Positions 17,955-64,000 of a DNA stretch of 64,000 bases are shown here, piece by piece; within the stretch, counting starts at the first letter, position 1; each line of letters begins with the position of its first letter. A program made the translations under genes and the position numbers. Below the pieces are notes generated by a model. The model was not told the DNA's origin. It saw only the letters and a program-made list of their open reading frames with translations, and made no database searches. Source of the DNA: Aestuariispira ectoiniformans (GTDB taxonomy: Bacteria > Pseudomonadota > Alphaproteobacteria > UBA8366 > Aestuariispiraceae); the NCBI RefSeq assembly GCF_025136295.1, contig NZ_CP062788.1, positions 1,395,001 to 1,459,000 on the forward strand, written 5' to 3'.

Positions 17955-17956
17955 AA

Positions 17957-18181
17957 TTATACGTCAGGTTTGATGGCACTCAGGTCGACCAGATAGCAGG
18001 CAGACCCGATGCCTTCACCGGTCTGTGAGACCGAGCCCAGGATAGAGCCGCGGGATACCAATTGTTGAACTTCTGCCTTCAGATCATCCGGCAGCTTTTC
18101 TTTCTGCCATGCTTCTGCAGGTACATAATAGATTTCAGAACCCCATTTAATTGCGAGACCATGATCATATTTATTCGCCAT
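17957..18181 (-). CDS. Small peptide, candidate RiPP precursor for the YcaO-TfuA pair
   Basis: I recognise no family for this 74-residue product. Residues 1-45 are charged and partly helical (MANKYDHGLAIKWGSEIYYV at the start, a Lys/Glu/Asp-rich middle). Residues 45-62 are rich in Gly, Ser and Thr and end in the only cysteine, Cys62 (GEGIGSAC), followed by a 12-residue tail ending KPDV. That leader/core layout and its position two bases before the YcaO gene suggest the substrate peptide. The ATG at 18181 has gggag 11 bases upstream. A GTG four codons earlier is possible but would overlap that site. No modification can be proven from sequence. Confidence 0.75.
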   Translation of the reverse strand: MANKYDHGLAIKWGSEIYYVPAEAWQKEKLPDDLKAEVQQLVSRGSILGSVSQTGEGIGSACYLVDLSAIKPDV

Positions 18182-18193
18182 GATTTTTCGCAC

Positions 18194-18303: not shown

Positions 18304-19050
18304 TCACATGGCTTTCCCATCCACAATAACGCGCCGGATTCCCCGGCTGCAGGCCTCAATCCGGGCGGCGACGTTATAGTAGTCGCGCAGGGTTGTTTCG
18401 GTGACAATTTCCGCGCTGGGACCGCAGGCCGCAAGCTGTCCGTTTGCGATCAGCATGGCCTGGTCAGCATATTGCAGCACGTCATTCAGGTCGTGAAGAG
18501 CGGCGAAAATGATCATGCCGCGTTCCCGCGCGAGCCGTCTGGCAAAGGTCAGAACCTCCACCTGACGATAGAGGTCGAGGGCCGCCGTCGGTTCGTCCAT
18601 GAGTAGGATTGCGGGTTCTCGCACAAGGGCCTGGGCAAGGCCGACCAACTGGCGCTGGCCGCCGCTTAATTCCGCGATGTTGCGGTGGGCGAGGCCTACA
18701 ATGTCGAGCGCACTCAGGGTTTCGTCGATGATCGCGAGGTCCTGTCTGCCGACCGACCAGGAGGCCCCCTGCTTGCGGGCGAGGAGAACCGATTCATAGA
18801 CGCTCAGCGCCGCATTGGCATTTGTGTCCTGCGGCATATAACAGACAGATGCATCATCACCGGACAGCATGACGTCGCCGGGGCCCGGCAGAAGGCCTGC
18901 CATGCGTTTGAACAGGGTGGATTTACCTGCCGCATTGGGGCCGATGACGGCAACCACGTCGCCCCCTTTGAAGGTTGGTGTGGTGATGCCGGATAACGTC
19001 AGTTTCCGGCCATGCCGCGCGCCGAGATCCGTCAGTTTGATCGCTACCAT
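18304..19050 (-). CDS. Iron-siderophore ABC transporter ATP-binding protein
   Basis: The 248-residue ATPase of the FecE/FepC class has Walker A GPNAAGKST near residue 37, signature LSGGQRQLVGLAQ near 135, Walker B ILLMDEPTAALD near 157 and the switch His in FAALHDLND near 190. It overlaps the permease gene by seven bases and completes an importer with the permease and binding protein. Substrate by context: the ferric complex of the siderophore made by the same gene block. Confidence 0.92.
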   Translation of the reverse strand: MVAIKLTDLGARHGRKLTLSGITTPTFKGGDVVAVIGPNAAGKSTLFKRMAGLLPGPGDVMLSGDDASVCYMPQDTNANAALSVYESVLLARKQGASWSVGRQDLAIIDETLSALDIVGLAHRNIAELSGGQRQLVGLAQALVREPAILLMDEPTAALDLYRQVEVLTFARRLARERGMIIFAALHDLNDVLQYADQAMLIANGQLAACGPSAEIVTETTLRDYYNVAARIEACSRGIRRVIVDGKAM

Positions 19051-20111
19051 GACTGCCTCGAGTTGGAGAAGATGAGCATCACGAAAAACGGGATGCCGAC
19101 AAGGGAGGTGACGATCCCGATTGGCAGGATCGCCCCGGCCATGAGGGATTTGCTGGCAATCGAGCTGGCTGACAGGATCAAGGCACCCGATAGTGCGGAG
19201 GCTGGCAGGAAAAACCGCTGGTCTTCCCCGATCAGCATCCGGGCGATATGCGGCCCGACCAGTCCGACAAAGCCGATGGTGCCGACGAAGGCAACCGGAA
19301 TGGCGGAGAGCAGGCTGACCAGGATCAGGGTCTCCAGTCGCAATCGCCCCACATTCACACCAAAGCTGGCCGCCTTGTCATCGCCCAGGCGCATGGCGGT
19401 CAAAGCCCAGGCACGGCGCGCGAACAGGGGCAGGACAAGAAGCAGTATCGCCAACGTCACGAATACTTTCGGCCAGGTCGCTTTGGTCAGGCTGCCCATG
19501 GTCCAGAACACGACTGCCGACAAGGCTTCGGATGAGGCAAAAAACTGGATCAGGGACAAAAGGGCGTTGAAACTGAAGACCAGGGCAATGCCTAATAGCA
19601 CGATTGTCTGGACGGTGACGCCGCGTTTCATACTCAGGATATGGATCAGCCCTGCGGTGAGCATGGCAACCACAAAGGCATTGATCGGCACCACGTAATC
19701 CGTGGCTGCGGGAATGATCGTCAGCCCGAAGGCCAGCGCCAGGGCGGCGCCGAAACTGGCGGCAGCGGAAATACCCAGGGTGAAGGGGCTGGCAAGCGGG
19801 TTGTTCAGGATCGTCTGCATTTGTGCGCCTGCCACGGCCAGGGCCGCGCCCACCACAACGGCCATAATCGCAATCGGCATGCGGATTTTCCAGATGACCA
19901 CTGAAATCTGTTCATCACTGCTGCCGGGGGCGAAAATGGCTGTGAATACATCACTCAGGGCGTAGCGCGCGGGGCCAAGCGACACATCAATGCAGATGCT
20001 TAACAGTAACGAAAACGCCAACACGCCGAGCAGGACTGCCCGGCGTCTGACCTGTGTCTGATAAAACAGCCGCCCCGATTGTGCCGGGGGGGCCAGTTCT
20101 TCCACCGTCAT
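19044..20111 (-). CDS. Iron-siderophore ABC transporter permease (FecCD family)
   Basis: The 355-residue protein has about ten membrane spans and is of the FecCD/BtuC family. Diagnostic segments are AGAQMQTILNNPLASPFTLG near 95, the family motif for coupling to the ATPase, and VGTIGFVGLVGPHIARML near 265. There is one permease gene only, so the channel is probably a homodimer. The start overlaps the binding-protein stop by four bases. Confidence 0.93.
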   Translation of the reverse strand: MTVEELAPPAQSGRLFYQTQVRRRAVLLGVLAFSLLLSICIDVSLGPARYALSDVFTAIFAPGSSDEQISVVIWKIRMPIAIMAVVVGAALAVAGAQMQTILNNPLASPFTLGISAAASFGAALALAFGLTIIPAATDYVVPINAFVVAMLTAGLIHILSMKRGVTVQTIVLLGIALVFSFNALLSLIQFFASSEALSAVVFWTMGSLTKATWPKVFVTLAILLLVLPLFARRAWALTAMRLGDDKAASFGVNVGRLRLETLILVSLLSAIPVAFVGTIGFVGLVGPHIARMLIGEDQRFFLPASALSGALILSASSIASKSLMAGAILPIGIVTSLVGIPFFVMLIFSNSRQSW

Positions 20112-21250
20112 GACGATCCTCCCTTGCTTTTAAGAGAGGCGAAATATCCCGGCTGGAAGCCGATTGGCAGGAACTTGTCATGCAATTCCCGGAAGGTCGC
20201 CTGCGGGTCGAGGTCGGTGAAAAGGTCCGGGTGGAACCATTTTGCGAATTGCTGGACGGCGATGAATTGATAGGGGCTGTTGTAGAACTGGTGCCAGGCT
20301 GCGTGGAAGGCCAGGGTCTTTTGTGCGGCAATACCGGTATAGGCCGGGCGTGTCGGATAATAGGCAAGCTTGCGCTGTACCTCTGTCATGTCCGCGCCGG
20401 GGCCGACAGGTACCCATTTGCCGCCGGGAACATAGGCCGCCCAATCCGCGCTGGTGACGATCACATGCGCAGGGTTCGAGGCAATCACCTGTTCCGCGTT
20501 AAGCTGGCCGAAGGTGCCGGGCAGCAGGCTGTTTGCGATATTGTCGCCGCCTGCAAGCGTGACAAGCCTGCCGAAATTCCCATCCCCGAACGTATGACAG
20601 CAATCCTCATAATAGCCCGCCGCCCGGTCCAGAAAGACCTTGGGTCTGGCAGGGGTTGCCTGGGCAAGGCGGTCCGTGACCCGCGCAATTTGCTTTTCCC
20701 GGAAGCGGATAAGGGCCTCCGCCCGATCTTCCCGGCCAAAGAGCTTGCCGAAAAGGCGGATGGACGGCGTGGTGTTTTTCATGGGTTTGTGCCGGAAATC
20801 CACATAGATCACCGGAATATTCAAGGCAGCCAGCTTTTCCACATATTGTGCGTCTTTGGTTGCCCGTTGGCTTTCCACGTTCAGGAACACCACATCCGGT
20901 TTTCGGCTGATTGCCGTTTCAATATCAATCAGGCTTTGCTCCAACCCGGAGAAGGTCGGGATGTCGGCGAAGGCGGGAAATTTCTCTCGATAGGCCGCAT
21001 AGGTGGCCGGGTCCGCCTGGATCAGGTCATCCCGCCAAGCAGCAATGCGGCTCGCCGGGTTTTCCCTGTCGAGAGCGGCAATCACATAAAGCATGCGGCC
21101 TTCGCCCAGGATTGCCCGTTTGATCGGCGTATTTACCGTGACGTTCCGCCCGACAATATCGGTAACGGTGACGGGGTCGGCCTGCCCCGCGCCAATGGTC
21201 AGCAGGAAACCCGCCATGGCGGCGAGAAAGCCGGGGAGCTTTCTTGTCAT
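20108..21250 (-). CDS. Iron-siderophore periplasmic binding protein
   Basis: The 380-residue protein has a signal peptide (MTRKLPGFLAAMAGFLLTIG, cut after GQA) and a class III binding-protein fold (FepB/FecB/BtuF type). The domain opens VTVTDIVGRNVTVNTPIKRAIL. It delivers the ferric complex to the FecCD permease. The ATG at 21250 is preferred for its agagga site; an ATG ten codons upstream would add a hydrophilic stretch before the signal peptide. It lies 34 bases after the MFS exporter gene. Confidence 0.88.
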   Translation of the reverse strand: MTRKLPGFLAAMAGFLLTIGAGQADPVTVTDIVGRNVTVNTPIKRAILGEGRMLYVIAALDRENPASRIAAWRDDLIQADPATYAAYREKFPAFADIPTFSGLEQSLIDIETAISRKPDVVFLNVESQRATKDAQYVEKLAALNIPVIYVDFRHKPMKNTTPSIRLFGKLFGREDRAEALIRFREKQIARVTDRLAQATPARPKVFLDRAAGYYEDCCHTFGDGNFGRLVTLAGGDNIANSLLPGTFGQLNAEQVIASNPAHVIVTSADWAAYVPGGKWVPVGPGADMTEVQRKLAYYPTRPAYTGIAAQKTLAFHAAWHQFYNSPYQFIAVQQFAKWFHPDLFTDLDPQATFRELHDKFLPIGFQPGYFASLKSKGGSS

Positions 21251-21284
21251 GTTGATCCTCTCTTTTTCTTGTTCTTTCATAGCC

Positions 21285-22532
21285 CTAGTGACTGCTTTCG
21301 GTGGCAGGTTCGTTGAGGGCGGAGTTGGCTGAAGCGCCGTTTCGGAAACGAACGGCGAGCGCCCCGGCCAGCGCGACTGCATAGACGGCGGCGACAAGGA
21401 AATAGGTGTATTCAAGACCCACTGCCTGGCTGAACCAGCCGCCCAATGCGATTCCGGCGATGGAGGAGAACTGGATGGTGCTTTGTGCGATACCCAGGAT
21501 ATGCCCCTGCCTCAGGTTGCCTGCGGCATTGGATATCTGCGACATCAGGACGGGCGTGGTTGCGCCCAGCAATATCCCCCAGAGGAAATAGATGCCGATG
21601 AAAACATTTGCCGATCTCGTCAGGCCCGCGATAACCATCAGCAGGATACAGACCCCGGCAACCAGGGCCATCCTGCCCAGAACGGATTGCAGTGTCCGGC
21701 CCTCGAAATATTTTGCCCAAAGCGAGGCAGAGACAACAAAGCCAAAGGCCTGCAGGCCATAGCACAGGCCGACGATCCAGTTATCCACGTTGAAAATGCC
21801 GCTGACATAAAGGGAAAAGGGCGTTTGCGGGATCAGGCGGCTGACCAGTAATGCCCCCATGACGACCAGCAGCCCCAGGACCGGCGGTTGTCGCCAGACA
21901 CCGGGTTGCCTCTGGGAGGACGGCTTTGCACTTGCCGATGAAGCGGTGGTGGGCTGAACATCCGGCAGGATGATCCATACAGCCACGGCAGACAGGGCGC
22001 AGAGGATCGAGGCGGTGAAGTTGATCCAGAAGAAGGTTGCAATATCGAGGATGACACCGCCGAGGATGGCCCCGACCATCGACCCCAGATTGGTGGAAAC
22101 CTGCAGATAGGCGAACAGCCGTGCCCGGCGGGACGGGTCTTCGATGCTGACGCCATAGGCCTGGGCGGGGGCGATATAACCTGCGCAGGCCCCTTGTAGA
22201 AAGCGCAGCACCAGAATCATCCAGACGTCATTGGAATAGGCCAGCGCCATCTGTGTGACGGCCAGACCGGCCAGCGCCCGGATCATCATCAGCTTGTGGC
22301 CCGTGCGGTCTCCCAGCCGTCCCCAGAAGGAACTGGTCAGCATGATGCCCAGCATGGGACCCACATAAACCGCAATCCCGGCGAAACCGAAAAGCCAGTC
22401 GGAAGAACTCAGGGATTTGAGGTGAACGGGCCAGAACGGCCCGCTCATCTCCATGGCACCCATGGATACAAGTTGGATGGCGAAAAGGACGTGGATCTGC
22501 CAGCGGCCCTGCGAAGCAAGCGATGCGGTCAT
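21285..22532 (-). CDS. MFS transporter, probable siderophore exporter
   Basis: The 415-residue protein has 12 predicted membrane spans in two halves joined by a polar loop (about 185-205). The MFS loop motif is GRLGDRTGHKLMM near residue 75. It lies between the NIS synthetase (eight bases away) and the iron-importer genes. That position is typical of siderophore exporters such as those in aerobactin- and staphyloferrin-type clusters. A drug-efflux role cannot be excluded from sequence. Confidence 0.82.
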   Translation of the reverse strand: MTASLASQGRWQIHVLFAIQLVSMGAMEMSGPFWPVHLKSLSSSDWLFGFAGIAVYVGPMLGIMLTSSFWGRLGDRTGHKLMMIRALAGLAVTQMALAYSNDVWMILVLRFLQGACAGYIAPAQAYGVSIEDPSRRARLFAYLQVSTNLGSMVGAILGGVILDIATFFWINFTASILCALSAVAVWIILPDVQPTTASSASAKPSSQRQPGVWRQPPVLGLLVVMGALLVSRLIPQTPFSLYVSGIFNVDNWIVGLCYGLQAFGFVVSASLWAKYFEGRTLQSVLGRMALVAGVCILLMVIAGLTRSANVFIGIYFLWGILLGATTPVLMSQISNAAGNLRQGHILGIAQSTIQFSSIAGIALGGWFSQAVGLEYTYFLVAAVYAVALAGALAVRFRNGASANSALNEPATESSH

Positions 22533-22539
22533 ATAGATG

Positions 22540-24444
22540 TCACTCCGCCGCAGGCGTGATCGGGTTCGGCAACTCATGCTGAATCCGATAATCGGCATAT
22601 TGTTCCAGATGCATCCGCAGAAGCGAGCGCGTCGACCAGGGCTGCGTCAGGAAAATCCGGCGTTCGTCTTCCCAGAAATTCCTGTCATGCACACGCGGTG
22701 CGATTGCCTGGAAGGCGGCGTCGGTTTCCTCGCCAATGATGTGCCATAATCGGTTGGAGGCGAGGCCGTATTCCGTCGACAGCATCAGTGCCATCTCATG
22801 CAGATGGCAGACATAGACCGCATCCAGGATGAAGGAGCGGATCGGTTCAATACTGTCGTCAAAGACCGTCGGCAGGATCACACCATAGCGATATGGCTTG
22901 ATCGAATGCCCGCGTTTTTCCAGCAACGGTGAATAGGCACGGGCATCGCCGTAGTCCCGGATGAGGAGGCTTTTGGGCGTGCCGTCGGCATCGAACAGGA
23001 TGGAGGTATTCTGTTGATGCGCCTCCAGTGTCAGACCGTAAAGCAGATACATATTCACCACCGGCTTCACGACAACCTGGACATAGCGCCGGAAGAAATT
23101 CTCGACCTGATCGGCCGTTGCCCGCTCCCCGCCCTTCTCTACGAGTTCGGTGATCAGCGGACGGGCATTCGATGGGGATTGTGCGAACAGGGCCGCGACC
23201 GTGACCGGTAACAGCCCATCATTGCGGTTCAGGGCCTTGGCGGTCGTGCGGAAGACGACGGAGAGATGCTTGCCTGCGTGATCGTCCTGTTTCACCGCAT
23301 GTTTAAAGTGAAAACCCAGGTCTTCGGGGAAGAATTCCAGCGCTTTGTTAAAGCCGTCCTCTTCATAGAGAATGCGTTCGATAACGGTGCTGAACCTTGG
23401 GCCCATATTGATGGATTTTGCCTGTAGGCCGCGCAGTTCGCTGGTCAGCCAGATGGCGACCGGCAGTTTGATGAAAGGCGCGTCGTCCGGCGTTTCCGGC
23501 AGCATGGTCCGGAAGGACATACTGGGCCTTGTATCAAGGTCGGGGCCATCGGTGATCAGGATGCCGTCAGCAATTTCCTCGGCATATTCGGTTTTGACGA
23601 AATTCTCCAGATGCCAGGAATGCACTGGCAGCGGCAGGTATTCCGCAGGCACCAGATCCTTGCTCTCCAGGCCGGATTTCCAAGCCGCATAGAGGTCGGG
23701 AAAGTTTTCCGCGAACCAGACATGATAGTCACTGACATGGGGCATGCGTTCCATATAGGCCATGTCGGCGCGCAAGGCGGTGATGCGGACCGGCACGACG
23801 GCGTCGAATTCGGGAGAAAGCCGTTCTACCTCATCCGGCGTCAGGTTCGGCTTGCACTTCCAGGTGGGATAGAAGGGATGCCCTTCCAATGATCCCCATT
23901 GATCGAGCAGTATGGCTGCCTTCCGCGTGGATTGTGTCTGGCGCATGAGATCAACCAGCCCCTTTGCGCCGTGGGCTTTGATTTCCTTACGCAGACGTTC
24001 GTTCCAGTCATGGCGATAGGTCCGTGCCTGGGCGTCGTTTGTTGTGCTGTTGGCGATATCCGCTTTGGTTTTTTCCAGCCCTTCTTCGCCGACCTGGAAA
24101 CAGAAAAGCGGGTGAAGCAGGTCCAGCAAGGCACCGGCGGTCTCAATCTCCTGCGCTGCCTGCCCTTGCCGGATCAACCGGATATTGCCGTTGTTGATGA
24201 AGGTATTGGCCGGGGCGGCCTTCAGGTCTTCGAAAAAGAGCAGGGCCTTCCGGTCCCAAAGGGGCAGCCAGGCACCGTTGCCGGTTGGCGCGTAAAACAG
24301 TTGGTCTTTATCAATAAGCTTTTCGGCGAAGATACAGCGAATTACCCGGCGCAGGGCATTGCGCTGTGAGTATTGCTCGACAACCGCCCGGTCGTTGGAT
24401 TCAAGGGACGTTTTTGCAGGGATCATGGTCTGGATCGTATTCAT
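22540..24444 (-). CDS. IucA/IucC-family NRPS-independent siderophore synthetase
   Basis: The 634-residue protein has the IucA/IucC N-terminal domain (motif SLEGHPFYPTWKCKPNLT near 150, an ATP-binding region) followed by the FhuF-like C-terminal part (EAHQQNTSILFDADG and LLIRDYGDARAYSP near 490-515). NIS synthetases adenylate a carboxylate such as citrate or 2-oxoglutarate and join it to an amine. With SbnA- and SbnH-like enzymes upstream, the amine is probably 2,3-diaminopropionate or diaminoethane. Only one synthetase is present, whereas staphyloferrin B needs three. The start ATG overlaps the preceding stop by four bases. Confidence 0.93.
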   Translation of the reverse strand: MNTIQTMIPAKTSLESNDRAVVEQYSQRNALRRVIRCIFAEKLIDKDQLFYAPTGNGAWLPLWDRKALLFFEDLKAAPANTFINNGNIRLIRQGQAAQEIETAGALLDLLHPLFCFQVGEEGLEKTKADIANSTTNDAQARTYRHDWNERLRKEIKAHGAKGLVDLMRQTQSTRKAAILLDQWGSLEGHPFYPTWKCKPNLTPDEVERLSPEFDAVVPVRITALRADMAYMERMPHVSDYHVWFAENFPDLYAAWKSGLESKDLVPAEYLPLPVHSWHLENFVKTEYAEEIADGILITDGPDLDTRPSMSFRTMLPETPDDAPFIKLPVAIWLTSELRGLQAKSINMGPRFSTVIERILYEEDGFNKALEFFPEDLGFHFKHAVKQDDHAGKHLSVVFRTTAKALNRNDGLLPVTVAALFAQSPSNARPLITELVEKGGERATADQVENFFRRYVQVVVKPVVNMYLLYGLTLEAHQQNTSILFDADGTPKSLLIRDYGDARAYSPLLEKRGHSIKPYRYGVILPTVFDDSIEPIRSFILDAVYVCHLHEMALMLSTEYGLASNRLWHIIGEETDAAFQAIAPRVHDRNFWEDERRIFLTQPWSTRSLLRMHLEQYADYRIQHELPNPITPAAE

Positions 24445-25607
24445 GCGATTGATCTTTCTGCGGGCCAGTGTTCGGGGAAATAGTCGAGGGCGGATTTCCG
24501 CAATCCGCCCATATGGGCAACGCACCAGCCGAAGATTTCTTCGATATGGGGCATGGGAACCGACAGTCGCCGGCCCATCTCCACCAGCAGGGCGAGGCCG
24601 AAGGCGATGTCTTCATGGAAGGCGCGGCTTTCGCGGTCTATCTCATAGCCGTCGCCGGATGCGGCGGGCACAAGCGGGGCCTCGATTGCCTCATAGGCCC
24701 TGTTCGTCCGCAGCACGCCCAGCATCGTGTGCGGGTCACGGATCTGGTCGCCGTAAGCGTCCGTGATCTCCTTCTTGAGCGGGTCGACGGAGGAAAGGTC
24801 AACCTTGAGTCGCCCCTCGATGGCCCGGCACAGGGCGCGGCTTTCCTCGTCGCTGCGTTCCAGGAAATAGGCGCTGAGTTCCGTGCTGTCCGTCCACCAG
24901 CAGACGCGCCAGTTAAACGGGCGCTGATGCCATTGCGCATATGGCCCGATCAGCCCGTATATGGCCGAGCTGTGCATGATTGGATTGCCCGGTGTCAGAG
25001 TGATTTCCAGATAGTTATCCAGCAAGTCGACGGGAGCGTCATACAGACGCTGCAGAATGGTATGCAGATTCTGACGGTTTTCATCCGTCTCCCGGGCATG
25101 GGCGGCAATATGCAGGCGGCTTTTCGCTCCTCCCATGCGGATGGAGACACCGGGGGCCAGTTCAAAGGCGGTGTGCGGCACGTCCTTCATGCCCCAGATG
25201 ACAACATTGGGTTGCCCGGCAAAGACCTTCTCTGCCAGCCAGTCGAACCCGCAGAAGCCGGGAATGGCTCCAACATAGACGGGCTTGTCCGTTGGCAGGG
25301 CTGGCCGGAGGGATTGTAGGACGGCTTCCCGGACGTGGGCGGGCACGGTGACGATGACAAGGTCGGCGTCAGCGGCCACCTCGACGGCGTCATCGGACAC
25401 GGCGTCCGGTGCGGCGGTGATCTGTCCGCCATCGGGCAATTGTGCGGTGATGCGACAGTCGCCCTTGCGGTGGCGGTCGATGAGGGGCTTGCTGCCTGTC
25501 AGGATGCTGACTTTCACGCCCGGTAGCTGTTTGAACAGGACGGCGTTGAGATGCCCGGTCTTTCCGCCGCCACAGATGACGACGTGAAGCGGAGAAGGTG
25601 CGGTCAT
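24441..25607 (-). CDS. Opine/octopine dehydrogenase-family oxidoreductase
   Basis: The 388-residue protein has an N-terminal Rossmann domain (VVICGGGKTGHLNAVLF near residue 9) and a C-terminal NAD/NADP octopine/nopaline dehydrogenase domain with the catalytic-type segment LTPGNPIMHSSAIYGL near 205. Family members reductively join an amino acid to a keto acid, or run the reverse. In Sbn clusters the dehydrogenase SbnB splits N-(2-amino-2-carboxyethyl)-glutamate into diaminopropionate and 2-oxoglutarate, but SbnB is of the ornithine cyclodeaminase family. This enzyme sits in the same slot with a different fold. It may replace SbnB or make an opine-type metallophore. Four-base overlaps on both sides show tight coupling. 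Confidence 0.8.
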   Translation of the reverse strand: MTAPSPLHVVICGGGKTGHLNAVLFKQLPGVKVSILTGSKPLIDRHRKGDCRITAQLPDGGQITAAPDAVSDDAVEVAADADLVIVTVPAHVREAVLQSLRPALPTDKPVYVGAIPGFCGFDWLAEKVFAGQPNVVIWGMKDVPHTAFELAPGVSIRMGGAKSRLHIAAHARETDENRQNLHTILQRLYDAPVDLLDNYLEITLTPGNPIMHSSAIYGLIGPYAQWHQRPFNWRVCWWTDSTELSAYFLERSDEESRALCRAIEGRLKVDLSSVDPLKKEITDAYGDQIRDPHTMLGVLRTNRAYEAIEAPLVPAASGDGYEIDRESRAFHEDIAFGLALLVEMGRRLSVPMPHIEEIFGWCVAHMGGLRKSALDYFPEHWPAERSIA

Positions 25608-26065
25608 CGTGCCTCTCCACCGGTTGCGGCCAGCTCGACTACATTGCGCGCGCCATGCTCATGGCCCAGTTCATCAAGGCCAAAGGCGCATTCCAGCCGC
25701 CAGGAGGATGGGATCAGATGGCGCGTGGTCTTGGGCGGGTACAGCCGACCCGTACGCGCACGGGTGCGCACATCCGTCGGCGTGACCGTGAATTGTGCGC
25801 GGCGCGATTCCACCGCGACGCTGCGGTAATCCGCCAGAAGACAGGGTACATGGCTGAGGCCCTGCTCACGCGCGAAGGCCAGGCGGTGGTGTCCGTCCAT
25901 CAGCACGAGGTCGTCCCATTCGACCAGCAGTGGCGTTGTCCAGACACCGGCGCAGCTGATCGTCTCACGGATCTCCTCCAGGCGTTCGGGGATATGTTCC
26001 TCGTGACGGAGAATGCGGCTGGTTTCGACCAGAACCACCGGCGTGCCTGATGTCTGACTGATCAT
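25604..26065 (-). CDS. ParB/Srx-fold protein, SbnI-like (possible free serine kinase)
   Basis: The 153-residue, single-domain ParB N-terminal/sulfiredoxin-like protein has the core LVLMDGHHRLAFAREQG near residue 50. There is no DNA-binding helix-turn-helix domain, so partition function is unlikely. In staphyloferrin B clusters SbnI has this fold and makes O-phospho-L-serine, the substrate of SbnA. The adjacent SbnA-like gene supports that role here. The start ATG overlaps the sbnA-like stop (ATGA); a longer frame upstream overlaps that gene and is unlikely. Confidence 0.82.
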   Translation of the reverse strand: MISQTSGTPVVLVETSRILRHEEHIPERLEEIRETISCAGVWTTPLLVEWDDLVLMDGHHRLAFAREQGLSHVPCLLADYRSVAVESRRAQFTVTPTDVRTRARTGRLYPPKTTRHLIPSSWRLECAFGLDELGHEHGARNVVELAATGGEAR

Positions 26066-27099
26066 GCGATCTTCTCCATAGGTTCTGTCCTGGCGTAGGG
26101 ATGGTCCAGCGGGACCCACTGGCGCAGGCGATGCCAGACCGCCGGATCGGTCAGGTCGCGCTCCTGCAGCCATTCTTCGCTGAAAACAGTGTGCAGATAT
26201 TTCTCGCCACCATCGGCGACACAGCAGACCACGGTGCCGCGCAGGTTTCTTTCATGGATCAGTTCAAGCGCCTTGTAGACTGCGCCACCGGTCGAACCAC
26301 CGACTAGCAGGCCGGTCTCACGGGCCAAAAAACGCGCGGTTTCAAAGGCTTCCGTGTCGCCCACCTGCATGCCTTCGTCGATGACGTCGTAGTCCACGAC
26401 CTTTCCGATTTCGTCGCCTTTGGGTGTGCCCGTGCCCGACTGGTAATAGGGATATCCGGGTTGGCCGAAAATGATGGAACCCTTTGGTTCCACGCCATAG
26501 GACGTGATCTGCGGTTTACGCGCCTTCATCGCGCGGGCCATCCCGCTGAGCGACCCACCGGTGCCGGTGCAGCCGACCAGATAGTCGATCTCGCCGCCTG
26601 TCTGGTCGAACAACTCATCGACCAGTCCCTCATAGCCCGCCGGGTTGGCCGGGTTGTCGGACTGGTTCATGAAAATCGCACCGGGGATTTCCCGCGCCAA
26701 CCGGGCGGCTGTGTTCTGTCGTTCGACGACAGCCACCTCGTCTTCGGCGTAGTCGCCTTCGACAAATTGCAGTTCCGCGCCAAGCGCCCTCATGACCGCC
26801 AGTTTGTCCGGGGCCGCATGGTGATCGACGATGGCGATAAAGCGGAAGCCCAGCTCGGCGGCGGTGATCGCCAGGCCGATGCCCGTATTGCCGGAGGAGG
26901 ATTCGACAATGGTACCGCCGGGCTGCAGGCGGCCATCCTCAATGGCGGTCAGGACCATGTTCCGGGCCATGCGGTCTTTCATGCTGCCGCCGGGATTATT
27001 CTTTTCGATCTTGAGAAGCAAACGCACTTCGGGGGCGGCAACGGGAAGCGCCAGAACCGGCGTGTTGCCCATGAGATCAGTTACCTTTTGATAGATCAT
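26062..27099 (-). CDS. SbnA-like PLP-dependent synthase (O-phosphoserine + glutamate condensation)
   Basis: The 345-residue enzyme of the cysteine-synthase/cystathionine beta-synthase fold has PLP lysine in NNPGGSMKDRMARNM near 40, the substrate loop VESSSGNTGIGLA near 67 and the phosphate-binding GCTGTGGSLSGMA near 175. By analogy with SbnA it would make N-(2-amino-2-carboxyethyl)-L-glutamate, the precursor of L-2,3-diaminopropionate. Its context (SbnH-like, SbnI-like and an NIS synthetase, all with overlapping starts and stops) makes cysteine synthesis unlikely. A second copy of this family lies at 61669-62715. Confidence 0.87.
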   Translation of the reverse strand: MIYQKVTDLMGNTPVLALPVAAPEVRLLLKIEKNNPGGSMKDRMARNMVLTAIEDGRLQPGGTIVESSSGNTGIGLAITAAELGFRFIAIVDHHAAPDKLAVMRALGAELQFVEGDYAEDEVAVVERQNTAARLAREIPGAIFMNQSDNPANPAGYEGLVDELFDQTGGEIDYLVGCTGTGGSLSGMARAMKARKPQITSYGVEPKGSIIFGQPGYPYYQSGTGTPKGDEIGKVVDYDVIDEGMQVGDTEAFETARFLARETGLLVGGSTGGAVYKALELIHERNLRGTVVCCVADGGEKYLHTVFSEEWLQERDLTDPAVWHRLRQWVPLDHPYARTEPMEKIA

Positions 27100-28511
27100 T
27101 CAGCTTCTCCTGAAAGGTCGTCGAGGACGACGGTGGTTAGGTCGCTGTTGACGGCGATGCGGTTTGGCATGGGAACCCGGTGGAATTCGTTCTCCAGCAG
27201 GTCCATCTGGTAGCCTGCGGTATTGGCATAGACGATCAGGTCGCCCGTCTGCGGGCGGGATTGGAACGGGAGGAAACGGTTGGTAATGACGTCCTCGTCC
27301 AGACAGCTATGCCCCGCGATATAGGCGCGGCAGGGCTTGTCATCGTTGGCTCCGGCGAGGCCGCAGGGCAGGTGGATCGGGTCCTGCAGGAATTCTGAAT
27401 TGAACCAGGTCTCGCAGGCGCTGAAGCTGCTGCCTTCGACAAAGAGGACATAGTCGTTTTCGCCCAGTGCCTTGACCCGTGTGATGCGGAAGGCGGTAAC
27501 GGCCGTCTGGTCCACCAGGCTGCGGCCCGGCTCCAGGCCCAGCACAAGGTTTTCCTGTTTCAGGTAATCGGCAATGTTCTGCCCGTCCCGGCAGGGGGAT
27601 GCCAGGAACAGGGATAGCCATTTCTGTGCATCCATTCGCCCGCCATATGGATAGAAGGACGTCGGCGTTGTGGCGTTGCGATAGTGCCCGTCGTGATGAC
27701 TGGCGATGAAGGCATCATAGCTGTCACTTTCGACATAACGGATCGGAATACCGCCACCAATATCCACCATTCTGGGGGACAGGCCGAGGGCGCGGGCCGT
27801 ATCGACCCAATCAACAAGCTCACACAGGGCTTCGGCGCGTGGGGCGGGCCGATAACCGCCAAGATGGAAATGGAACCCTTCGAATTGGAAGGCCGCCTTT
27901 TGTGTCGAGAGCTTTCTAAGGCAATGTTCCAGATCATTGGCGGTCATGCCGAACCGGCTTTGCAGCGAGGCGCTCGGGCGATAGCGCAGGGTCACCCGAA
28001 TGGGCCAGTTGTCGCGGTAATCGGACAAGAGGCTTTCCAGCACAGCCAGTTCCTCCACAGAATCGATTGAGATCAGGGCGCCGCGGCTCACAAGATCGGC
28101 GATAAAGGCGTCCGGCTTTGCCGGGCCGGTGCCGCATATCTGCTCCGGTTTGGCGCCGGCGCGCAGGGCATCCCGAAATTCATAAAGGCTGGACGCATCC
28201 ACGCCCAATCCGGCGTCGACTGCGGCGTGGACAAGCGATTGCGACTTATTCACTTTGATGGCGTAAAAAATTTGATGCTCCACACCATGCGCCTGGAGGA
28301 CGGATCGCATGGCGTGGAGGTTCTTGTGCAGGATATGCGGCCAGACAATGTTCAACGGCGATCCGAATTGTTCCACCAGTTCCATCACCCTGCCGGGGCT
28401 ATGCTCCAGCAGGGTGGCGATGGTCGGATCCAGCAGCGGAGGGAGGGCCGGAACTTTCGTTTCGGTATCTGACATCAAAGGACTGGCCGCATTGGCGGTG
28501 GTCGGTTGCAT
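27096..28511 (-). CDS. SbnH-like PLP-dependent decarboxylase (fold type III)
   Basis: The 471-residue enzyme of the diaminopimelate/ornithine decarboxylase family has PLP lysine in IFYAIKVNKSQS near 85, FHFHLGG near 210, the phosphate-binding LGLEPGRSLVDQ near 320, the catalytic cysteine region FSACETWFNS near 365 and the conserved tyrosine in NTAGYQMD near 440. SbnH decarboxylates a citryl-diaminopropionate intermediate in staphyloferrin B synthesis. The ATG at 28511 has a clear aagggag site; an ATG twelve codons upstream does not. It is the first biosynthetic gene after the receptor. Confidence 0.88.
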   Translation of the reverse strand: MQPTTANAASPLMSDTETKVPALPPLLDPTIATLLEHSPGRVMELVEQFGSPLNIVWPHILHKNLHAMRSVLQAHGVEHQIFYAIKVNKSQSLVHAAVDAGLGVDASSLYEFRDALRAGAKPEQICGTGPAKPDAFIADLVSRGALISIDSVEELAVLESLLSDYRDNWPIRVTLRYRPSASLQSRFGMTANDLEHCLRKLSTQKAAFQFEGFHFHLGGYRPAPRAEALCELVDWVDTARALGLSPRMVDIGGGIPIRYVESDSYDAFIASHHDGHYRNATTPTSFYPYGGRMDAQKWLSLFLASPCRDGQNIADYLKQENLVLGLEPGRSLVDQTAVTAFRITRVKALGENDYVLFVEGSSFSACETWFNSEFLQDPIHLPCGLAGANDDKPCRAYIAGHSCLDEDVITNRFLPFQSRPQTGDLIVYANTAGYQMDLLENEFHRVPMPNRIAVNSDLTTVVLDDLSGEAE

Positions 28512-28574
28512 GTACGTCTCCCTTGGCGTGGTGGGGGCTTGGGTCATGGGTGAGATTGTCTGGCTGCCTGTTGA

Positions 28575-31025
28575 TCAGAATTTAGAGGTCAATGAGACGT
28601 AGAATGTGCGCGGCGCGCCCTGGGAAATCATGCTCCAGCTATTCACGCCGGACCAATATTCGTTATCGAAGACATTCTCGACGGTGCCCCGGACGGTCAG
28701 CGGTGTTTTGCCGACCTCGAAATCGTAGTAGGCGGCCAGGTCCAACGTGGTCCAGTCATCGACACTGTTGGTGTTGGCGGCATCGACAAATTGTTTGCCT
28801 GTATGGATGACCGTGCCCGCCAGGGTCAGCCCGTCAACAAAGGAGGTATCCCATTCGGCGGTTACATTGGCCTGGAAGTCAGGCACGCCGACCGGGGTTT
28901 TGCCCAGGGTGCTGGCGCTGCTGGTGCTGGTCATTTCGGCATCAATGAACATGGCGCCTGCCATCAGTCGAATGCTGGGACTTACCTCGCCGAAGACATT
29001 GAGTTCAATGCCACGGTTCCGCTGTTCGCCATCGCTTGTGTAGACATTACCTGCATTCAATTGGCCGAATGGCTTTGTGATCTGGAAAACACTGGCGGTC
29101 GTGGCGACGGTATCGAAGTCCAGTTTGACACCCGCCTCATATTGCTTTGTCACATAAGGCGCGAGCGCTTCGCCTGCGTTGTTGGCGGTGTTCGGGGCTA
29201 TATCGCCCTTGCTCAGGCCTTCGGCATAGTTGGTGTAGACCGAAACATGCTCCCAGGGCTTCACGACGATCCCGGCCATGGGGGACAGGGCGCTTTCGTC
29301 ATAGGAATCGCTGGCGGCCCCGTTGGCGTCGAAATTGTCCGTTTCCACACGCTGCTGGCGTGCGCCCAGGGTCAATTGAACCCGCTCGTCCCAGACGGAC
29401 AGGGTGTCAGCAAGGGCAACGCCGGTTATCGTGTTTTTTGACCGGGTAACGATATTGGACGGCTTTGCCACGGACTGTGCCGGGCGGTTGATCGGATCGT
29501 AGATGTTGGAGGTCAGGCCCACGCCGTTTGCGGAACCCTTCTTGAGGCGGTCACCGTAGTAGTTGGCCTGCAAAGTCAGGCTATGGTTGACTGCCGCCGT
29601 GTCGAATTGAACCCGGATTCCGGCATCGCTGCTCCATCTATAGGATTTGAAGACATAGCGTGACGGGGTGTCCGAGGTATCCCCGGCGCTGTTTTGAATG
29701 ACCGGATAGCCGAACAGACGGTCAACCTCGGAAATGCCACCGCCCAGGCCACCGAAAACCATCAGGCTGTCGTTGATGTCGTATTCCGCCCGGAGCAGGG
29801 CCGTATTATCCTCTGTTTCAGACCATTCCCAGGCCTGCGTGATGTTGCGTGCGCCGTTGGGGGCGTCGGGCAGGGCGACGCCGGCTGCCAACCGGACTTC
29901 GCGGGACGGCGCATTGAAATCCTCGCGCTGATTGATCAGGTCGAGGGTCGCCCGGAAATCCTCACCGCGATAATCGAGTGCGGCGGACCCGAGGCGTGCG
30001 GTTCGGGTTTGATTGTCCAATGCTGTATCGCCATCGGAATAACCTGCGTTCAGGCGGATGCCGAATTCGTTGTTTTCTCCGAAGCGGCGGCCGACATCCG
30101 CATGGGCGCCTGCCTGCTCTCCGCGTCCGAAGGTACCTTTGATGGCCGTCAGGTCCTCGTCGCCTGCGCGTTTGGGCACAATGTTGATGGTGCCGCCAAC
30201 GGCGCTGTTCGGGGCCATGCCGTAAATCAGTGCGGTCGGCCCCTTCACGACTTCCACCCGCTCCGCCAGGTCGGACATGATGCGATAGCTGGGCGTGACA
30301 CCATAAATGCCGTCGAAGGCAATGTCGCTGGAGTTGCCGATGTTGATCGGGAAGCCGCGAATGTAATAAGCGTCCAGCATGCCGCCCGAGCTGCTGGATA
30401 CGCGGACGGACGGGTCCTGTTTTGCCACATCGGCGACGGTCCCGGCCTGCTGGTTTTCGATCTTTTCCCGGGTGAAGCTGGTTGTGCTGAAGGGCGTGTC
30501 CATGATGTCCTTGTTGCCCAGCATGCCGACCCGTCCGCCACTTGCGACCATATTGCCTGCATAGGGCGCGGGCAGTGTGTTGATCACGGCGTTGGGGCTG
30601 GTCTGTGTGGCTTCCACATCAATTGGACGCAGTTGGACCGTACCGTCGTCGGCGGTGGTTGCCGAAGCCGTCCGGTCTACAAGGATAACGGATTTATCGG
30701 CGGTCACCTTGTAGGACAGCTCCGTCCCGCGCAGCAGATGGGAAATCGCCTGTGGCACGGTGAGAGAACCCTTCACCTGAACCGTCTCATCAATCGTCGG
30801 CAGATTAAAGGTGTAGGCGATGTTCCAGCCGGATGCCCTGCCGATATCGGCAATACCGGCGGCCAGCGTGTCGGCCTCGATATCGAATTGATACGTCTGG
30901 TCGGCGACCTGGTCTTGAGCCAGGGCAGGCGTCGCCACACCCAAAATCGGCGCAACGATTGCGCTGGATACCATCAAAGCTGCGACGAGGGATCTGGACT
31001 TGGGGTACGGGCGTGACGCCAACAT
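28575..31025 (-). CDS. TonB-dependent siderophore receptor with STN signalling domain
   Basis: The 816-residue protein has a signal peptide (about 1-36, ending TPALA). A secretin/TonB short N-terminal (STN) domain at about 45-115 opens QFDIEADTLAAGIADIG. A plug domain spans about 150-280 (NVVASGGRVGML is not present; the plug shows KDIMDTPFSTTSFTREKIE). A 22-strand barrel ends FYVSLTSKF with the terminal Phe typical of outer-membrane proteins. The STN domain marks a transducing receptor that signals ligand binding to FecR. FecR and FecI genes lie just upstream. The likely ligand is the product of the downstream enzymes. Confidence 0.94.
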   Translation of the reverse strand: MLASRPYPKSRSLVAALMVSSAIVAPILGVATPALAQDQVADQTYQFDIEADTLAAGIADIGRASGWNIAYTFNLPTIDETVQVKGSLTVPQAISHLLRGTELSYKVTADKSVILVDRTASATTADDGTVQLRPIDVEATQTSPNAVINTLPAPYAGNMVASGGRVGMLGNKDIMDTPFSTTSFTREKIENQQAGTVADVAKQDPSVRVSSSSGGMLDAYYIRGFPINIGNSSDIAFDGIYGVTPSYRIMSDLAERVEVVKGPTALIYGMAPNSAVGGTINIVPKRAGDEDLTAIKGTFGRGEQAGAHADVGRRFGENNEFGIRLNAGYSDGDTALDNQTRTARLGSAALDYRGEDFRATLDLINQREDFNAPSREVRLAAGVALPDAPNGARNITQAWEWSETEDNTALLRAEYDINDSLMVFGGLGGGISEVDRLFGYPVIQNSAGDTSDTPSRYVFKSYRWSSDAGIRVQFDTAAVNHSLTLQANYYGDRLKKGSANGVGLTSNIYDPINRPAQSVAKPSNIVTRSKNTITGVALADTLSVWDERVQLTLGARQQRVETDNFDANGAASDSYDESALSPMAGIVVKPWEHVSVYTNYAEGLSKGDIAPNTANNAGEALAPYVTKQYEAGVKLDFDTVATTASVFQITKPFGQLNAGNVYTSDGEQRNRGIELNVFGEVSPSIRLMAGAMFIDAEMTSTSSASTLGKTPVGVPDFQANVTAEWDTSFVDGLTLAGTVIHTGKQFVDAANTNSVDDWTTLDLAAYYDFEVGKTPLTVRGTVENVFDNEYWSGVNSWSMISQGAPRTFYVSLTSKF

Positions 31026-31057
31026 TTCTCAACTCTCCAACAAACAATGAGTACTTT

Positions 31058-31075
31058 GGCAGCAAAGATGCTGCC
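31058..31075 (-). other. Small hairpin between fecR and the receptor gene
   Basis: A perfect 6-bp stem (ggcagc with gctgcc) surrounds a 6-base loop in the 112-base leader before the receptor gene. There is no T run. It may be an mRNA stability element or weak attenuator; function unknown. Confidence 0.4.
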
Positions 31076-31137
31076 TTCACTAAGGACTAACGGTTGGCGG
31101 GAAGAGACCCTCACATGCGAATGAAAATTTTTCGCAA

Positions 31138-32091
31138 CTAGAAAAGGATGGTCAGCCAGGGGGTGCTGTGAAGCACTGTGCTATCGGTTGCCGCGGCAAT
31201 GGTATCCAGGGCGCGGTCGATGTCGGTTGCGGGGAAAGTGCCGGAAATCTTTCGAGAAGCTAACGGCCCGATGACCACGATCCGCCCCGTGCCATATCGT
31301 TCCAACTGGTCGGTCAGGTCTCCGACGGGGATATTCTGAACGCTGATTTGCCCGTTCAACCATGACAGGACGAGGTCGAGATTGGCGGATGTGATCGCAG
31401 AGCTATGACCGTCGCGGACGGAGACGGATTGCCCCGGTATAAGGCGGGCAGGGTTTGTATCGGCGTTGCCGGTTACCTCGACTGCGCCCCGATTGACGCT
31501 GACGACCGTCTGGTCTGGTTGCAGGTCCACATTGAATCGCGTACCGACAACCCGGACAGTTGCCTCCTTCGCATTGACGATGAAAGGGCTGGTGTCATGA
31601 TGCGCTACATCGAACAGGGCCTGGCCGCGTAACAGCGTAACCTGACGTCGTCCCTGTTCGAAGTTGGTTGAAAGGGCCGTATCCGCGCTGAGGGTTAAGG
31701 TGGAACCGTCCGGCAGTGTCGCGGTGGTGGCGATGTCACGGCCTGCAACGATATCGGCCTGCCAGTCCTGCAGGATATTCGGGGAGGTGAACCAGACAGC
31801 AGCCCAAAGCGCGCAGGACGCTCCCAGCAATGCGAGGGAGCCACGCCACCCCGGCCTGCGCAGGCGTTTCCAGGGCAGTTTGCTTTTTTGTGCAAGCCGT
31901 TTTGCCGGGGCTTCAAGCTGTGCCCAGAGGATACGCATCTGGTCAAAGGCCAACCGGTTGCCCGGGGCGGCGTTCAGCCAATCCTCAAGCTGGCGCTTCT
32001 CGTCTTCCGACAGTGAACCACCGGCGCGTTTTGCCAGCCAAAACGCGGCCTTGTCTTTCTGCTCGTCTGTCGGTTCGATGTCGCGCTGCAT
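31138..32091 (-). CDS. FecR-type anti-sigma/signal transducer
   Basis: The 317-residue protein has an N-terminal cytoplasmic DUF4880 segment (AAFWLAKRAGGSLSEDEKRQ, then LAFDQMRILWAQL) that binds the sigma factor. One membrane span lies at about 85-103, followed by a periplasmic FecR domain (TLPDGSTLTLSADTALS near 130) and an STN-like C-terminal part. It relays receptor occupancy to FecI. The ATG at 32091 is used; a TTG four codons upstream is possible. It lies 111 bases after the sigma-factor gene. Confidence 0.92.
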   Translation of the reverse strand: MQRDIEPTDEQKDKAAFWLAKRAGGSLSEDEKRQLEDWLNAAPGNRLAFDQMRILWAQLEAPAKRLAQKSKLPWKRLRRPGWRGSLALLGASCALWAAVWFTSPNILQDWQADIVAGRDIATTATLPDGSTLTLSADTALSTNFEQGRRQVTLLRGQALFDVAHHDTSPFIVNAKEATVRVVGTRFNVDLQPDQTVVSVNRGAVEVTGNADTNPARLIPGQSVSVRDGHSSAITSANLDLVLSWLNGQISVQNIPVGDLTDQLERYGTGRIVVIGPLASRKISGTFPATDIDRALDTIAAATDSTVLHSTPWLTILF

Positions 32092-32202
32092 GGTTCCCGG
32101 CAACCCTTATGCCCCGTTTGCATTGTTCAGTGAGTTGGCTTTTCCCTACTCATAATGAACGCTCGGGATCAAAAAGACCGCATGTGGCAGTTGGATGGGT
32201 TC

Positions 32203-32817
32203 TTATGGCTGGTTAATATGCTCAGCCAGGTGGCGTTGGCAATGGCGCATGACACGGGCCAACTGCTTTTCCACCGCACTGACGGATATTCCATAGCGTC
32301 TGGCGATTTCGGCGTTGGGAACACCCTTGACCCTATGCAGGAGAAAAATCTCCCGGGCCTGCGGTCTTAATTCCATCAGGGCCTTGTCCAGTGTGGACAA
32401 GGCCCGGCGGGCCCCGACCTGCTCTTCCGGTGAAGAGGCCAGCACATGACCCAATTGATTGGGCAAGACCTGGTTCATCGCATGTTGCCGGCGGTGACTG
32501 CTGCGCCGGTGATCTGTGACGGCGTTGCGCACAGCCGCATAAAGGATTTTGGTATCGTCGTTGTCGCCACCACCGCTGCTGCCTGCCTGCAGCATCCTGG
32601 TATAGACATCCTGAACGATTTCCCCGGCGACCTCGCGGTCCTGCACACGCCTCGCCGCCAGCGATACAAGATGTCGGCTGTGCTTTTCGAACAGAATTGC
32701 GAGCTTGCGGTGCCAGGCATTCATGGGGCGGGAACGACATTCTGCCAACAGGGTTGCAACCAATCGGTCAGCAACGGCAATCCTGCCTTGTTTTGCAGAA
32801 ATTAACTCAACCACCAC
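32203..32817 (-). CDS. FecI-type ECF sigma factor
   Basis: The protein of about 204 residues has sigma70 region 2 (LFEKHSRHLVSLAARRV, then IVQDVYTRML) and region 4 (LRPQAREIFLLHRVKGVPNAEIARRYGISVSAVEKQLARV). Group FecI by context with FecR and an STN receptor. It would drive transcription of the receptor and probably of downstream biosynthesis. The start is GTG at 32817 with a weak agg site; an ATG at 32724 would begin nearer region 2 and is also plausible. A strong Fur-like box lies 27 bases upstream. Confidence 0.9.
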   Translation of the reverse strand: MVVELISAKQGRIAVADRLVATLLAECRSRPMNAWHRKLAILFEKHSRHLVSLAARRVQDREVAGEIVQDVYTRMLQAGSSGGGDNDDTKILYAAVRNAVTDHRRSSHRRQHAMNQVLPNQLGHVLASSPEEQVGARRALSTLDKALMELRPQAREIFLLHRVKGVPNAEIARRYGISVSAVEKQLARVMRHCQRHLAEHINQP

Positions 32818-32843
32818 TGACCTGCGTGGACGATATCAATGTT

Positions 32844-32862
32844 AATAATGATTATCAATAAC
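32844..32862 (-). promoter_or_regulatory. Fur-box-like operator upstream of the ECF sigma gene
   Basis: Read on the minus strand, GTTATTGATAATCATTATT matches 16 of 19 positions of the Fur consensus GATAATGATAATCATTATC. It overlaps a plausible promoter (TTGATA, 17 bases, TATCGT) just before fecI. Iron-bound Fur (or a related alphaproteobacterial regulator) would thus shut off the sigma factor and the iron block it activates. It could also be recognised by RirA- or Irr-type regulators, whose boxes differ. Confidence 0.75.
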
Positions 32863-63989: not shown

Positions 63990-64000
63990 TTGTGACCGGT

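Follow-up and report, generated by a model that had tools for sequence, protein, structure and literature searches.

Known systems and the locus under study

In Staphylococcus aureus, the SbnI/SbnA/SbnB route is established (PMC3179956, PMC12414870). For rhizoferrin, a single synthetase of the non-ribosomal peptide synthetase-independent siderophore (NIS) type was reported to be enough, and in Francisella the enzymes FigA and FigC were described to act in turn, whereby the synthetase forms citryl-ornithine and, after its conversion into citryl-putrescine by the decarboxylase, attaches a second citrate (PMC7857480). The proteobactin operon of Proteus mirabilis is Fur-regulated and already had an opine dehydrogenase listed among its products (PMC11026637), while the y4y/y4x genes of Sinorhizobium fredii, which belong to a flavonoid-linked type III secretion locus, were called enigmatic in their role (PMC3973906). 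The present analysis concerns a locus of Aestuariispira ectoiniformans, found within a stretch of 64,000 nucleotides (contig NZ_CP062788.1, positions 1,395,001 to 1,459,000), which is hereafter termed the window. A first-pass annotation of the window had described five overlapping genes encoding SbnH-, SbnA- and SbnI-like proteins, an octopine/nopaline-dehydrogenase-family enzyme (ODH) and one IucA/IucC synthetase, and read them as an Sbn cluster with a single gene exchanged and its three NIS synthetases cut down to one.

All five genes were confirmed; they lie on the minus strand (28547-22540) in the order decarboxylase, SbnA-like enzyme, SbnI-like kinase, ODH and NIS synthetase; all four junctions inside the set are 4-bp ATGA overlaps, which makes translational coupling likely. 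The unit itself, however, turned out to be larger, as the five genes are part of an iron operon (18304-32862, minus strand) that also encodes regulators, a receptor, an exporter and an ATP-binding cassette (ABC) importer. The derivation from an Sbn cluster did not stand: four of the proteins come from other families or clades and only the SbnI-like kinase is shared. SbnB and three NIS synthetases, as expected of a staphyloferrin B cluster, are both lacking, there being no SbnB and one IucA/IucC protein. What the locus does contain is the gene set of the proteobactin/Y4x-type NIS operon, i.e., Y4yA decarboxylase, SbnA-like enzyme, ODH, one NIS synthetase and a major facilitator superfamily (MFS) exporter, usually accompanied by an SbnI-like kinase, a set identified here in 80 loci including that of P. 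mirabilis (L012) and the y4yB-y4xM genes of S. fredii NGR234. The operon type is thus already known, annotated and widespread, and it is the mechanistic reading that is new: judged from sequence, the locus may be an iron-regulated operon of this type making a dicitrate, rhizoferrin-like product, a proposal held with slightly less than even confidence.

Exchange of the dehydrogenase fold between related gene sets

Relatives of the ODH were collected by scanning one genome per species, the loci being picked with a pair of peptide patterns from its subfamily, which gave 95 relatives, of which 80 were kept; as many of them stem from close relatives (Pseudomonas, Pectobacterium, Bradyrhizobium), the locus counts do not represent independent events. 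An NIS synthetase was found in all 80 loci (single in 79; L065 has two adjacent partial NIS frames), the SbnA-like enzyme, the decarboxylase and the MFS exporter in 79 each and the SbnI-like kinase in 74, and genes missing from ODH loci are mostly explained by contig-end cuts. The search for the gene set elsewhere, which the first-pass annotation had proposed, returned SbnA-like enzyme, decarboxylase, ODH and synthetase together in 79 of the 80 loci, the remaining one being cut by a contig end, and a grouping of this kind is not due to chance. The SbnA-like gene directly adjoins the ODH gene in 74 of 79 loci, and in four more the SbnI-like gene alone lies between them. Among other genomes of the window's order the ODH was found in 0 of 42, and among those sampled from its class in 1 of 385, which points to acquisition by transfer.

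The best evidence for the role of the ODH comes from a search led by the decarboxylase, which identified clusters without NIS genes that encode an SbnI-like kinase, a protein of the ornithine cyclodeaminase family (OCD), a Y4yA decarboxylase and an SbnA-like enzyme (Aureimonas L176, Agrobacterium L177 and L180); Rhodococcus L175 possesses OCD, Y4yA and SbnA-like genes without the kinase. These sister clusters usually continue with a multidrug and toxic compound extrusion (MATE) exporter, and those of Aureimonas and A. vitis also include an iron ABC importer. The SbnA-like proteins of the sister clusters share 47-50% identity with that of the window, and the SbnA-like proteins of ODH and OCD clusters form one clade (support 100/99). 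For the OCDs of L175, L176 and L180, SbnB was the top NCBIfam match, with 89-103 bits, below the cut-off of the model. Neither ODH nor NIS genes were found in the OCD loci L175, L176, L177 and L180, no SbnB relative was found in the 80 ODH loci, and ODH and OCD never occurred together in the loci examined. As the sister clusters carry an OCD nearest to SbnB at the corresponding place, the ODH was reasoned to fill, probably, the SbnB/OCD-equivalent step, in support of the earlier claim that a different fold occupies the SbnB slot. OCD-fold and ODH-fold dehydrogenases hence appear to replace each other in closely related gene sets, an exchange by which the reaction direction is not fixed.

A more distant version of the OCD cluster resides on mycobacterial plasmids. 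On those of Mycobacterium avium (L174) and M. intracellulare (L181), genes for a Y4yA decarboxylase, a MATE exporter and a cysteine synthase were observed, with a metal-responsive regulator next to them (CsoR in L174, ArsR/SmtB in L181) and an OCD gene also in L174; this looks like an unstudied metallophore cluster. The NIS-less quartet may resemble the biosynthesis of [S,S]-ethylenediaminedisuccinate (EDDS).

The genome of the window was searched with profiles for an SbnB, and none was found in the cluster or elsewhere. Its four OCD-family proteins (ornithine cyclodeaminase, EutC, BhcD and a P2C-reductase type) reach 93-116 bits with the SbnB model, against a cut-off of 327, and a hidden SbnB among them was thus rejected. 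A single IucA/IucC protein is encoded in the genome, as the first-pass annotation had it for the locus, so that the finding it had named as contrary to its view, a true SbnB with further NIS synthetases, was looked for and did not turn up.

The opine dehydrogenase

The ODH (24441-25607, minus strand, as are all genes described below) matches PF02317 with 91.1 bits (cut-off 30) and is the one PF02317 protein of the genome. Its structural model (predicted local distance difference test 92) is most similar to octopine dehydrogenase (Z 40.4), followed by CENDH (36.4), hence the octopine/nopaline dehydrogenase assignment was borne out; with SbnB it has only a weak Rossmann stretch in common. In a sequence alignment, which maps residues onto octopine dehydrogenase at about 20% identity, His212, Arg324 and Asp329, i.e., the catalytic His/Asp and the NADH-sensing Arg, are kept in 86 of 86 ODHs, which places the enzyme in this family together with domain match and fold. 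In the ODH of the window, the conserved catalytic residues are His212, Arg328 and Asp333. Octopine dehydrogenase holds the arginine side chain of its substrate by Glu142 and Trp278 (PMC2924402), and the same alignment has Lys and Glu at these positions in all 86 ODHs. With the catalytic residues kept, these charges would go well with a zwitterionic amino-acid head, for instance that of 2,3-diaminopropionate (Dap). A staphylopine-type identity was rejected, as the domain scan gave no match to PF10100, the staphylopine dehydrogenase family; since a NAS-like domain, the mark of a CntL-type partner, was likewise found in none of the cluster genes scanned, the locus does not belong to the staphylopine-type opine metallophore systems (CntKLM).

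Partner enzymes and synthetase

The SbnA-like protein (26062-27099; PF00291) is a Y4xP-type beta-replacement enzyme dependent on pyridoxal phosphate (PLP). With the NCBIfam model of SbnA it scores 239.9 bits against a cut-off of 349.95, less than with that of cystathionine beta-synthase (250.7), and its identity to SbnA of S. aureus, at 32%, is no higher than that to E. coli CysM (34.5%). True SbnB clusters were retrieved as a comparison set, and their SbnAs share 53-59% identity with the S. aureus protein. Two trees, the second of them computed without L124 (a distant SbnA on a long branch), place the ODH-linked proteins into a clade of their own, separate from SbnA; being below the cut-off and in a separate clade, the protein does not count as an SbnA orthologue. 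In SbnA, the binding of O-phosphoserine was ascribed to three residues, among them Arg132 (PMC12414870), whose equivalent is Arg in 85 of 85 SbnA-like proteins and Ala in CysK/CysM.

The decarboxylase (27096-28547; PF02784) belongs to the Y4yA family of fold-type III PLP enzymes. To true SbnH it is 22-26% identical, in part over short stretches (best E about 1e-11), and its model matches diaminopimelate decarboxylase (Z 35) better than N-citrylornithine decarboxylase (31.5) and SbnH (30.6); as its fold is no nearer to SbnH than to other fold-III decarboxylases, it is not an SbnH orthologue. The earlier SbnA- and SbnH-like designations thus hold at the level of the superfamilies and fail at that of the true Sbn families. 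For the SbnI-like protein (25604-26065, start codon corrected to 26065), a short form of 153 aa, the designation holds: it scores 55 bits with the SerK model of NCBIfam, under the cut-off, yet matches a free serine kinase of the PDB at E 3e-10 with its HE, DGHHR and PKTTRH motifs, so that the active-site motifs of the archaeal enzyme are retained in a shorter protein, and it shares 39% identity with the ParB-like protein encoded in Sbn cluster L130. It is accordingly an SbnI-type serine kinase, common to this locus and the Sbn clusters.

The NIS synthetase (22540-24444, start codon corrected to 24444; for both genes the longer open reading frame starts were dropped) has IucA/IucC and FhuF domains. 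Its best NCBIfam score is with FslA (280.8 bits, below the cut-off of 1000), followed by SbnF (103) and SbnC (88.5). In a quick tree with weak deep branches, it joins the synthetases of two clusters composed of NIS and MFS genes only (L167 and L168, called rhizoferrin-type from profile matches and gene content alone) at 97 SH-aLRT and away from the three staphyloferrin B synthetases, while a third FslA-like synthetase on a long branch (L169) did not join that group. The enzyme thus groups with the rhizoferrin type, and it is proposed to be an FslA/rhizoferrin-type synthetase which would make a dicitryl diamine.

Proposed pathway and alternative explanations

From the gene set, the protein families, the folds, the conserved residues, the tree positions and the ODH/OCD exchange, a route is proposed by analogy with SbnI/SbnA/SbnB and with Francisella FigA/FigC. 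Initially, the SbnI-like kinase would phosphorylate serine to O-phosphoserine, whose phosphate the SbnA-like enzyme would replace by the amino group of an amino acid, giving a secondary amine; in the Sbn pathway this co-substrate is glutamate. Next, the ODH would act oxidatively, removing a hydride from the secondary amine, and hydrolysis of the resulting imine would yield Dap and a keto acid, which amounts to SbnB chemistry carried out by another fold. The Y4yA decarboxylase would then take CO2 from free Dap or citryl-Dap or, alternatively, act on the condensation product, with the same end product. The single FslA-type synthetase would place citrate on both amines, yielding N,N'-dicitryl-1,2-diaminoethane, a rhizoferrin relative with a short spacer, which would be exported by the FslB-like MFS protein and re-imported via the TonB receptor and the FhuD/FecCD-type ABC transporter, under control of Fur and FecI/FecR. 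We infer all of these reactions, including the direction of the dehydrogenase step, the order of the third to fifth steps, the co-substrate amino acid and the product. That the ODH runs oxidatively towards Dap or a diamine was considered to be an evenly balanced matter, and dicitryl-diaminoethane is put forward as product tentatively, with rather less than even confidence. A product different from staphyloferrin B, as the first-pass annotation had expected, is supported.

Several observations weigh against the proposed route. The decarboxylase family is also found without any NIS gene, hence citryl-Dap need not be its substrate; free Dap or the condensation product may take its place. In vitro, no siderophore was formed from Dap by FigA and FigC together, nor by the synthetase of Ralstonia pickettii (PMC7857480), and a review citing Himpsl 2010 puts PbtA and Y4xN into a type B NIS clade (PMC11026637). 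Of the three O-phosphoserine residues of SbnA, Arg132 alone is kept in the SbnA-like enzyme, with Tyr152 changed to Ser and Ser185 to Gly, and Y4xP was reported as a cysteine synthase (PMC3973906). Finally, the NIS-less OCD clusters found in Aureimonas and A. vitis include both an exporter and an iron ABC importer, so that their dehydrogenase may act reductively and assemble a metallophore.

This last point leads to the main alternative, which was judged less likely: the ODH would work reductively, in the manner of staphylopine-type dehydrogenases, and join the primary amine of Dap, diaminoethane or an N-(2-aminoethyl)amino acid with a keto acid, giving an opine or aminopolycarboxylate (EDDS-like) unit, with citrate then attached by the synthetase. 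The metallophore enzymes of the ODH fold (staphylopine, pseudopaline and yersinopine dehydrogenases) are reductive and the model matches them with Z 27-32, and the OCD quartets adjoin their transporters as if the quartet alone makes a chelator. On the other hand, the missing PF10100 match and the nearness of the ODH to octopine and CENDH-type enzymes argue against it, and a rhizoferrin-type synthetase with an FslB-like exporter already constitutes a complete chelator system without an opine arm. The small carboxylate or opine-type metallophore envisaged earlier is conceivable, yet less favoured than a dicitrate siderophore.

According to a second alternative, the SbnA-like protein is an ordinary cysteine synthase, the ODH supplies or removes an unrelated opine and the siderophore is built from other amines. 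Both the description of Y4xP and the two residue changes, of which Gly is also the residue of CysK/CysM, fit this idea, but it is rendered improbable by the strict co-occurrence with decarboxylase, NIS synthetase and receptor genes, by the retained equivalent of Arg132 and by the presence, in 74 of the 80 clusters, of a gene for a dedicated serine kinase. Barely credible is an origin of the locus from staphyloferrin B genes, by which it would be a true Sbn cluster that had exchanged SbnB and given up SbnG and two synthetases. The same kinds of reaction are represented and the kinase is common to both, but none of SbnA-like enzyme, SbnH-like enzyme, synthetase and dehydrogenase falls within the Sbn families, and the trees contradict this reading.

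Returning to the oxidative route, its extension to the whole operon type, including proteobactin and y4x, is more tentative still: a Dap/diaminoethane core would be made by a reversed ODH as a non-homologous replacement of SbnB, and the product would be an ethylenediamine analogue of rhizoferrin. In the literature, no report of a route pairing an opine dehydrogenase with SbnA, rhizoferrin or Dap was found, nor was a siderophore structure for this operon type in the open literature, subscription papers lying outside the search. If true, the proposal would predict backbone and mass for a siderophore family of Pseudomonas, Pectobacterium, Burkholderiaceae, rhizobia, Thalassospira and Proteus, and would assign a function to the long enigmatic y4y/y4x genes. 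It would also provide a clean case of two unrelated dehydrogenase folds at one step in closely related gene sets and make the in vivo direction of opine dehydrogenase chemistry directly testable.

Operon architecture and neighbouring genes

The operon opens with a Fur-box-like 19-mer (GTTATTGATAATCATTATT, 32844-32862, minus strand) just upstream of the gene for a FecI-like extracytoplasmic function (ECF) sigma factor (32203-32817; Sigma70_r4_2, Sigma70_ECF). In a Fur consensus scan with up to 3 mismatches, this site was the sole match in the 64 kb, with 0 matches in 100 shuffles; when 4 mismatches were allowed for the ODH loci, sites were found in 10 of 80, and Fur control is therefore claimed for the window alone. 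A FecR-like anti-sigma regulator (31138-32103; PF04773 FecR, DUF4880) and a TonB-dependent siderophore receptor (28575-31025; TIGR01783, 365 bits) follow; the plug and barrel domains of the latter are above the Pfam cut-off and its N-terminal STN domain is just below. Downstream of the synthetase, the MFS exporter (21285-22532, start codon uncertain) has the rhizoferrin exporter FslB as top NCBIfam model (166.8 bits, under its cut-off). It is followed by a periplasmic siderophore-binding protein (20108-21253, with 21253 as the start chosen here; PF01497; PRK14048, 241 bits), a FecCD-type ABC permease (19044-20111) and an ABC transporter ATPase (18304-19050), the last two assigned from blastp matches and from annotated orthologues at the same place in Bradyrhizobium L010.

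A YcaO/TfuA pair (17954-15313) was considered as a member of the siderophore unit and rejected, as it is present in no ODH locus. An open reading frame of 78 codons (17957-18193) lies immediately before the YcaO (17954-16653) and TfuA (16656-15313) genes, and the three together (15313-18193, minus strand) look like a thioamide-type precursor of a ribosomally synthesised and post-translationally modified peptide with its maturation pair, separate from the siderophore operon type. Moreover, a second set of related genes (60953-63998, minus strand) runs past the window to about 64662 (L141:6957-10662) and encodes an SbnI-like protein (beyond the window), a Y4yA decarboxylase, an SbnA-like enzyme 46-47% identical to that of the siderophore operon and a phosphopantetheinyl transferase; genes for ODH, OCD and NIS are absent from this set. 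Beyond the window, divergent genes for a ketosynthase, an AMP-ligase-like protein, a short-chain dehydrogenase/reductase and an N-acetyltransferase are located nearby; the second set possibly makes a different product on the same unit.

Variation among the ODH loci was observed as well. A CitE-like gene occurs in 33 of 80, often gammaproteobacterial ones (L008, L012, L027-L054, L058-L065, L077), and a class V aminotransferase gene in 24 of 80, among them some gammaproteobacterial versions; both are absent from the window and likely represent a side branch of the pathway. S. fredii NGR234 has two ODH copies, one in the type III secretion locus of pNGR234a and one on the larger replicon NC_012586 (L009, H16).

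Comparison with known systems

The proteobactin operon of P. mirabilis (pbt, PMI0229-0239) encodes the same NIS synthetase, TonB receptor, decarboxylase, PLP enzyme, opine/octopine dehydrogenase, MFS exporter, binding protein and SbnI-like protein (PMC11026637), but differs in gene order, in the additional CitE-like pbtI, absent from the window, and in its genes for the ABC permease and the ATPase, which lie at the opposite end. In S. fredii NGR234, y4yB-y4yA-y4xP-y4xO-y4xN-y4xM encode SbnI-like kinase, decarboxylase, SbnA-like enzyme, ODH, NIS synthetase and MFS exporter in one run, whereas neither receptor nor ABC importer lies within the stretch read. Staphyloferrin B (sbn) clusters follow the same logic, with serine kinase, SbnA-like enzyme, NAD-binding dehydrogenase, decarboxylase and NIS synthesis, but possess the OCD-fold SbnB, three NIS synthetases and SbnA and SbnH from other clades, and the Gram-negative sbn clusters read have an SbnG-like aldolase. 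Rhizoferrin clusters (fslABC/figABC and the NIS+MFS pair of R. pickettii) have a single synthetase of the same family and an FslB-like exporter, in Francisella also a decarboxylase; they differ by the absence of SbnA-like enzyme, kinase and dehydrogenase, their diamine being putrescine or ornithine-derived. The SbnI-OCD-Y4yA-SbnA-like-MATE clusters of Aureimonas and Agrobacterium, finally, combine the same kinase, decarboxylase and SbnA-like families with an adjoining dehydrogenase gene, and are distinguished from the window by OCD in place of ODH, a MATE exporter and the lack of an NIS synthetase.

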